Origin: Leptotrichia wadei | GTDB taxonomy: Bacteria > Fusobacteriota > Fusobacteriia > Fusobacteriales > Leptotrichiaceae | NCBI RefSeq assembly: GCF_007990545.2 | Contig: NZ_AP019829.2 | Coordinates: 1,674,001-1,738,000, forward strand | Direction of reading: 5' to 3' | DNA: 64,000 bases | In this document: positions 33,108-36,388 of the stretch, piece after piece | Position numbering within the stretch: position 1 is the first letter of the stretch | Layout: each line of letters begins with the position of its first letter | Position numbers and translations under genes: made by a program | The notes under the pieces: generated by a model | What the model was told of the DNA's origin: nothing | Seen by the model: the letters and a program-made list of their open reading frames with translations, nothing else | Database searches by the model: none

Positions 33108-34124
33108 TTAAAAATCATTTCTCAAAACTTCCCCTTTTCTCAAATTACTTCTCATCTTCTGAATAACATCATCCATTTCATCCAGTTTTTTCAAAATTTT
33201 CTTTTCCTCCGCACTTGTCGTGATAATTTTACTAATTCCACCATTTTTTATTATAATTCGTTTATCTGCTATTAGTGCCAATGTTGGATCGTGTGTTGCC
33301 ATTAATACGATTTTGTCAGATGAAACAAGTAATTCCAAAGCTTTTTTCCTGTCAATTCCTGCATTTTCAATTTCGTCAATTAGGACAATTGGAGATGAAC
33401 TTAGAATGGCTGTGTCGGCAATCATCAAAGCACGGGATTGTCCACCACTTAGGGCTGTAATTGCAGTAGTTAAGTCAAATTGCTCTCCAGCCAGATTGTT
33501 TGCAGCGGTAATGATTTTTTCCACAGTTTCATCAATATCTTCAATCATTCGGCTTTGAGCGTGCAGTTCTAGAAATTCCTTTACCGATAAATCCATAACA
33601 AAATTCATATTTTGTGATAGTTGTGCGACTAATTTGTTGTTTGAGGAATAACGCCATTTTTTGTCTGGAAGTTCACCATTTATAAGGATTTGACGCTGTG
33701 TTGGAGTATCTTTCTGGGCAGTCCATTCGATGTCGGCAAGAAGTCTTGATTTTCCAGAGCCTGTAGGTCCTACAATGGAAATAATTTCTGATTTATGAAT
33801 GTCGAGCCTTTCAAATCCCTCTTTATTTCCTGATTTATCCTGTCCAGCAAGGATTGTAAGCAGATCAATCGAATTTTCCTCTTCCATTCCCAAAAAAAGT
33901 TTCATCTGCTCAATGTAGTCAACAAGACTTTCCTCAATTTTTTCCACATCCAGTGCAAAGTCTTCGATTTTATCTTCTGCAAAAGTTACGATGAACTCGT
34001 GAAATGTCCTATCCTGAAAAGTTTCTACAGGTAAGTGGTTTTCAGTAAAAAAGTTTTCTGCAAAGGGATATTTATTGCTAAGTTCACTAATAGTCAATTT
34101 ATTTATTAAATCGTTATTTTTCAT
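33108..34124 (-). CDS. Soluble ABC-type ATPase with N-terminal helical domain
   Basis: 338 residues. Residues 1-80 form a small helical region (ISELSNKYPFAENFFTENHLP) resembling DUF1858-type domains. The ABC ATPase has Walker A GPTGSGKS (119-126), signature LSGGQ (225-229), Walker B IVLIDE (246-251) and the switch His in THDP (about 278). There is no membrane domain and no permease gene nearby, so it is unlikely to be a normal importer. It is the third gene of an operon with a metal-type GTPase and a binding-protein-like protein, 35 nt after the GTPase. The role is unknown; an energy-driven cofactor or metal-transfer machine is a guess. Confidence 0.8.
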   Translation of the reverse strand: MKNNDLINKLTISELSNKYPFAENFFTENHLPVETFQDRTFHEFIVTFAEDKIEDFALDVEKIEESLVDYIEQMKLFLGMEEENSIDLLTILAGQDKSGNKEGFERLDIHKSEIISIVGPTGSGKSRLLADIEWTAQKDTPTQRQILINGELPDKKWRYSSNNKLVAQLSQNMNFVMDLSVKEFLELHAQSRMIEDIDETVEKIITAANNLAGEQFDLTTAITALSGGQSRALMIADTAILSSSPIVLIDEIENAGIDRKKALELLVSSDKIVLMATHDPTLALIADKRIIIKNGGISKIITTSAEEKKILKKLDEMDDVIQKMRSNLRKGEVLRNDF

Positions 34125-34159: not shown

Positions 34160-34852
34160 TTATTGCTGTAAATTCATTTTTCGGACATTACCCATCTGGT
34201 ATTTTTCACCGATTCTCTTTTCTCCCAAGCAGTAAGAGCAAAGTGCCGATGGCATAGGAAATCTAAGTTCCATTCCCTGAACGCTGTCTATTTCCAATTC
34301 TTTTTCGTAAAGAAGTGTACTTAATTCGTACGCTCCTTGTCCAGTAAGCCCGTTAACGTGCATTGTTACAGCTTTTGGGTTTACGGAGTTCACACGTGAG
34401 GCAAAAACTTCACGTTCAGCTTGTGAAACAATGTCTCCTTTGGTAATAATAACAATATCAGCAGCTTTTAATAATGGTCCAATCTTTTTAGGCGTATTAA
34501 TTCCTGATAAATTGTCAATTACACAGACTCCCTTGATGTCCTTGATATATGGCGAACATCTGTTGCAAAGTCCTGCCGATTCTGTAATTAATATTGAAAG
34601 CCCAAGGCTGTTTCCCCATTGCACAACTTCCTCGATATTTGATACGAAGAAATGGTCTGGACATAAAGCACCTGAAATTCCTTTTTTTACTGGAATTCCT
34701 GCTTTTGCATATAATTTGTCGTCATCTGTATAAAGACAGTCAAATTTTACTACTCCCACTGACATTCCTTGTGATTTTAAGGCTTCTACTGTTTTTAGAA
34801 TAACGCTTGTTTTTCCTGATGATGGTGGGCCTGAAAATATTATCAAATTCAT
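34160..34852 (-). CDS. CobW/HypB/UreG-like GTPase with cysteine motifs
   Basis: 230 residues. P-loop GPPSSGKT (8-15), ESAGLCNRC (91-99, Cys96 and Cys99), a guanine-specificity-like ITKGD (136-140) and a C-terminal CSYC pair (about 205-208). This is the SIMIBI G3E-type fold used for inserting metals into enzymes. The two cysteine pairs suggest a bound metal or cluster. It lies 26 nt downstream of the binding-protein gene and just upstream of the ABC ATPase gene. Target protein unknown. Confidence 0.8.
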   Translation of the reverse strand: MNLIIFSGPPSSGKTSVILKTVEALKSQGMSVGVVKFDCLYTDDDKLYAKAGIPVKKGISGALCPDHFFVSNIEEVVQWGNSLGLSILITESAGLCNRCSPYIKDIKGVCVIDNLSGINTPKKIGPLLKAADIVIITKGDIVSQAEREVFASRVNSVNPKAVTMHVNGLTGQGAYELSTLLYEKELEIDSVQGMELRFPMPSALCSYCLGEKRIGEKYQMGNVRKMNLQQ

Positions 34853-36168: not shown

Positions 36169-36212
36169 ATTATAACATAAAATAACAAAAAAAAGTGTAA
36201 TATATATTACAC
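36169..36212 (-). promoter_or_regulatory. Promoter with perfect 18-bp palindromic operator for the ABC/GTPase operon
   Basis: GTGTAATATATATTACAC (36195-36212) is a perfect palindrome. On the minus strand a TATAAT (complement at 36169-36174) lies 20 nt downstream, so the palindrome covers the -35 region. The 5' leader would be about 55-60 nt. The regulator is not identified. Confidence 0.7.
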
Positions 36213-36388
36213 AAATCTAAGAAAAATTTGGTAAAATGTCGCAATTAATATTGCAATTTATGTAATACTTAAATTTCATTTATACTATTTCCTATTAAAA
36301 TAACAGATCTATTATAAATCGAAATCTCGACCTTTTTTTAAATAGTATCTAGTAAATAATCAAAAAATTATCATAATATAGTGAAACC

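Follow-up and report, generated by a model that had tools for sequence, protein, structure and literature searches.

Organisation of the locus

The window, by which we mean the whole stretch of 64,000 nucleotides analysed from the Leptotrichia wadei genome, harbours a perfect palindrome flanked on one side by three minus-strand genes and on the other by the end of an rRNA operon that includes tRNA-Asn. The features of this locus are as follows.

33108..34124, minus strand: gene 3, soluble ABC ATPase whose N-terminal extension is helical, 338 aa
34160..34852, minus strand: gene 2, P-loop GTPase of the CobW/HypB/UreG type with CNRC and CSYC motifs, 230 aa
34879..36105, minus strand: gene 1, DUF1858 plus SBP_bac_6 with a ferric-binding-protein fold, 408 aa
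36169..36174, minus strand: -10 element TATAAT, its spacing conserved among relatives
36195..36212, no strand: perfect 18-bp palindrome GTGTAATATATATTACAC, a predicted HcpR dimer site, conserved ahead of orthologous operons
36197-36210: palindrome core GTAATATATATTAC, centred at about -41.5

The intergenic gaps in the operon are 26 and 35 nt. The first-pass annotation of this DNA described a fully symmetric 18-bp palindrome 20 nt from a TATAAT, and both statements agree with the sequence: the symmetry is complete at 36195-36212, and the gap to the TATAAT (36174-36169, minus strand) is 20 nt. The palindrome was also said to cover a -35 element. This was not borne out, as inspection by eye showed no TTGACA-like hexamer at spacings of 16, 17 or 18 nt and a promoter scanner detected no promoter-like pair ending at the TATAAT. 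Reckoned from the TATAAT, the palindrome is centred at -41.5, which is the position of a CRP/FNR activator; class II activators of this family bind at -41.5. On the plus strand (window positions 36197-36237) the palindrome is followed by a -10-like TAAAAT facing the rRNA operon, probably by chance.

An 18-bp perfect palindrome is by itself unremarkable and not rare in this AT-rich window. Four perfect palindromes of at least 18 bp were present against 0.77 expected, and at least one occurred in 52 of 100 dinucleotide shuffles. The bare palindrome was accordingly dropped as evidence, and the case for the 18-mer being above chance is made by its conservation across orthologous operons. Searching the 2.34 Mb genome for additional copies with one or two mismatches, as had been proposed, returned none; one other site had three.

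Several Leptotrichia operons (L013, L016, L017, L019 and L021) display a terminator-like hairpin with a T run in the leader upstream of gene 1, perhaps an attenuator, which the leader in the window lacks. The L013 leader folded no better than its shuffles (z -0.93).

Conservation of the site upstream of orthologous operons

The GTPase was present in 22 of 33 Leptotrichiaceae genomes. All 22 carriers had an equivalent site ahead of the operon, with a -10-like hexamer 20-23 nt further on, a count that is descriptive since the relaxed consensus used, GT(A/G)A(C/T)-N4-(A/G)T(T/C)AC, was partly derived from the same sequences and the script favours hexamers near 22 nt. All ten letters of this relaxed form were matched in 21 carriers and nine in G002. 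For G003 a single operon was assumed, the site lying ahead of the gene 1 start and the GTPase on another contig.

The independent test was the published strict motif of HcpR2, GTAAC-N4-GTTAC. Eighty loci were found via the GTPase among genome contigs; 78 had a recognised gene 1 and 76 enough upstream DNA to be scanned. The exact strict motif occurred in 37 of the 76 upstream regions, mostly from other phyla, against 0.04 expected from shuffles, and at least nine of its ten letters in 45 (0.42 expected). A -10-like hexamer started 20-23 nt downstream in 41 of these 45 loci, given that the script prefers distances near 22 nt. In 29 of the 76 loci, notably those of Peptostreptococcus and Lacrimispora, no more than seven letters matched, which is no better than shuffles. 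The check on orthologous operons thus came out in favour of the dimeric regulator that the first-pass annotation had proposed for the operon. That the palindrome is a functionless product of AT-rich sequence, as the 0.77 palindromes of this length expected per window could suggest, is already contradicted by conservation and fixed spacing in the whole set of family members and across phyla, and its probability is negligible.

The window copy matched eight of the ten strict-motif letters, the divergence being a symmetric change from C to T, while the exact motif occupied the same place elsewhere in the family and in other phyla. The C and T variants of the site intergrade among close relatives.

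The candidate regulator

A single protein with the CRP/FNR domain PF00027 is encoded in the window genome (C1:2093262; L186:3158-3811). PF00027 scored over its cut-off, and the weaker HTH_Crp_2 score (16.6 bits, below the 27-bit cut-off) falls in a region that aligns with the solved structures 9day and 1o5l, so that both a sensor and a helix-turn-helix region were found. Among solved-structure matches, chain 1o5l, a CRP-family protein of Thermotoga maritima, ranked first and 9day, the HcpR of Porphyromonas gingivalis, second.

Of the 28 genomes with a completeness of 90% or more, 19 carry both PF00027 and the operon and the remaining 9 carry neither, a full agreement; over all 33 genomes the two agree in 31, the exceptions being G003 and G025, both 86% complete. 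The corresponding Fisher value of 1.4e-7 is overstated, because the genomes are related and the counts not phylogenetically independent.

The recognition helix reads TRPALSR in the window genome (G000), and its Arg-Pro was present in 20 of 20 aligned Leptotrichiaceae loci. In the HcpR2 branch the second specificity position of this helix is a proline, and Arg-Pro is the signature (PMC1274295, in part). Met66 of the regulator aligned with the heme ligand Met68 of P. gingivalis, and the EM pair was likewise conserved in 20 of 20 aligned Leptotrichiaceae loci; Met68 matters for heme binding and activation in P. gingivalis (PMC12750200, in part). In a 41-row tree, whose long branches make the deep joins uncertain, the regulator shared a clade (support 97/96) with 1o5l, P. 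gingivalis HcpR and the regulators encoded next to hcp in two relatives, and other CRP/FNR paralogues fell outside it. Judged by these sequence features, the CRP/FNR protein of the window genome is very probably of the HcpR type, with the recognition pair of the HcpR2 branch.

Ten of 13 Leptotrichia genomes share the GTPase (window positions 34160-34852) with 99-100% identity. In the nine of these ten other than G000, the regulator is 77-96% identical to that of the window genome.

Relation to hcp

The classical target of HcpR is hcp. It was located close to the operon in 33 of 80 loci, usually shortly downstream, and scored over the cut-off in 19 of 20 named operon carriers, Treponema vincentii being the one without. 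Of 118 genomes in the Tissierella class, 60 had hcp over the cut-off, among them all eight whose GTPase orthologue is 43% or more identical (hypergeometric 0.0035; the 43% line was placed with hindsight, above a gap that extends down to 39%).

Within the Leptotrichiaceae, hcp was found in 9 of 22 operon carriers. The other 13, the window genome among them, had neither hcp nor a prismane-family protein over the cut-off. This counts against the HcpR2 reading, since that branch was stated always to co-occur with hcp (the 2005 paper PMC1274295, in part), and it also means that HcpR and the operon persist in the window genome without hcp.

A small HypA-like zinc-ribbon gene, whose HypA score was below the cut-off, was a conserved neighbour in 26 of 80 loci. 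It was tried as an indicator of the association with hcp and rejected, nearly all hcp-bearing Leptotrichiaceae being without it; in the 33 Leptotrichiaceae genomes it gave a strong match in G017 only and a weak one in G006.

Genome-wide occurrence of the site

When 13 Leptotrichia genomes were searched for the site combined with a -10 element, this composite pattern gave 34 matches, compared with 4 for the reversed control. These included the operon promoter in 11 of the 13 genomes and hcp in all three hcp-bearing ones, and by direct check an MntR/DtxR-type gene was preceded by a predicted site in 8 of the 13. About a third of the 34 matches fell outside the operon, MntR/DtxR and hcp groups. 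In the window genome the pattern was restricted to the site in the window, read on both strands, and the one upstream of mntR.

A regulator other than HcpR, dimeric and with a similar recognition sequence, could own the palindrome, and the two symmetric positions at which the window copy leaves the strict HcpR2 consensus would fit such an owner. The C and T variants, however, grade into each other, those Leptotrichia that have hcp carry this element ahead of it as well, and only one CRP/FNR protein is encoded; we regard another owner as quite improbable. A metal-sensing regulator is unsupported, as the best candidate is HcpR; one other predicted HcpR site does precede a regulator of the MntR/DtxR type.

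That predicted site (L187:3648-3875; G000:C1:1997647 onward) and its -10 are separated from the downstream MntR/DtxR-type gene by about 360 nt. The DNA between them contains a second promoter and a strong hairpin that has a T run, so that transcription from the site may yield a short RNA. In G004, a ferredoxin-domain gene resembling FrdX (L202:1068-1922) is preceded by a perfect TGTAACAATTGTTACA site, although no PF00027 protein was found in this genome, which is 88% complete.

The three-gene operon

The structure predicted for gene 1 had a mean pLDDT of 84, and in a fold search its C-terminal domain matched the ferric-binding-protein fold with a Z of about 22. A 43-row alignment revealed an invariant cysteine. 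No signal-peptide-like segment was seen in gene 1; the highest 12-residue Kyte-Doolittle mean within the first 60 residues ranged from 0.38 to 1.44 over the 43 rows. Pfam assigned DUF1858 to gene 1 alone, and the helical N-terminus of gene 3 resembles it by eye. The CNRC and CSYC motifs of gene 2 were present in 79 of 79 relatives; close relatives of this GTPase include that of L. hongkongensis. Gene 2 scored 41.9 bits against the curated HypB model with a cut-off of 121.2, and is thus classed as HypB-like, not as HypB. For gene 3, many ABC ATPases were found at similar scores, including both the Fe-S-assembly protein SmsC and transporter ATPases, so the fold search cannot separate these two kinds. 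Among the NCBIfam families shown, no equivalog scored over the cut-off for the operon.

No membrane permease was found in the three genes, and none was recognised by eye among the conserved neighbours. A periplasmic uptake system is not favoured, as the operon has no permease gene and gene 1 no strongly hydrophobic N-terminus. From its sequences the operon looks like a metal-handling machine, presumably handling metal or iron-sulfur clusters during nitrosative stress. As a hypothesis, we infer a NO-induced cytosolic system for the assembly or repair of metal or Fe-S clusters, bearing in mind that a shared fold shows no function. More tentatively, and with considerable doubt, a cytosolic iron carrier resembling ferric-binding proteins, a HypB-like GTPase and an ABC ATPase devoid of a permease might together form a machine not described before that mends or builds metal clusters under NO, serving Hcp in most bacteria and some other client in Leptotrichia, most species of which lack Hcp and all other prismane-family proteins.

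A model for control of the operon

It is very likely, judging from the sequence comparisons above, that the palindrome is the site of the HcpR orthologue and that the operon is transcribed from a NO-activated, HcpR-dependent promoter. The Leptotrichia orthologue, a CRP/FNR-family homodimer, would bind the palindrome. By analogy with P. gingivalis HcpR, NO on the heme ligated by the conserved Met66 would activate the dimer, which at -41.5 would act as a class II activator in contact with RNA polymerase and substitute for the missing -35 element, thereby turning on the three-gene operon. Known HcpR proteins sense NO through heme and in other anaerobes turn genes on in response, and the signal at this promoter is by the same analogy probably NO rather than a metal. 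The first-pass annotation had expected a regulator sensing a metal or cofactor to disclose the substrate of the operon; a probable condition did emerge in this way, NO sensed through heme as in known HcpR, but no cargo.

HcpR might instead hold the operon repressed until NO releases it, and the effect of NO would then be derepression, not activation. By overlapping the -35 region, the bound site could block the polymerase, and in Desulfovibrio desulfuricans HcpR2 was modelled as a repressor of hcp (PMC5701242, in part). The window promoter, however, has no -35 hexamer that a repressor could cover, the -41.5 spacing is conserved across phyla, and the P. gingivalis protein, which shares the methionine, is an activator (PMC12750200, in part). 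Repression is therefore considered unlikely, and activation by HcpR is the preferred reading.

By this reading, a highly conserved and uncharacterised operon gains a candidate regulator and a candidate condition, which makes its function testable. Most of this genus of oral anaerobes would moreover retain a NO regulon although hcp, its classical target, is missing, raising the question of what protects these cells from NO.

Comparison with known systems

A literature search over titles and abstract openings returned no paper on this operon under HcpR, though an earlier mention may exist. The main text of PMC1274295 holds no mention of an ABC transporter, HypB, ATPase, solute-binding protein or GTPase.

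Gene 3 resembles SufC in having no permease. With the HypA/HypB and UreG metallochaperones, the operon shares the CobW/HypB/UreG domain of gene 2 and, in some relatives, a HypA-like zinc-ribbon gene, but gene 2 scores far below the curated cut-offs and no link to hydrogenase or urease was seen. The C-terminal domain of gene 1 has the fold of the ferric-binding proteins FbpA and FutA, from which gene 1 differs in its N-terminal DUF1858, an identity of 8-16%, and the lack of both a signal-peptide-like segment and a permease in the operon.

The regulator resembles P. gingivalis HcpR (PDB 9day; PMC12750200, in part) in CRP/FNR family by sequence, heme-ligand methionine and clade, whereas the P. 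gingivalis protein has a glutamine in place of the recognition-helix proline and a different DNA motif. The DNA site resembles those of the HcpR2 regulons of Clostridium, Bacteroides, Thermotogales and Treponema with their consensus GTAAC-N4-GTTAC (Rodionov et al. 2005, PMC1274295, in part): motif (eight of its ten letters in the window copy), recognition-helix proline, anaerobic hosts and, in relatives, the hcp target are alike. The main targets named there are hcp and frdX, whereas here an ABC/GTPase operon is the predicted target in a genome without hcp. The HcpR2 family of regulators is already known, and the interest lies in the ABC/GTPase target and in the lack of hcp.
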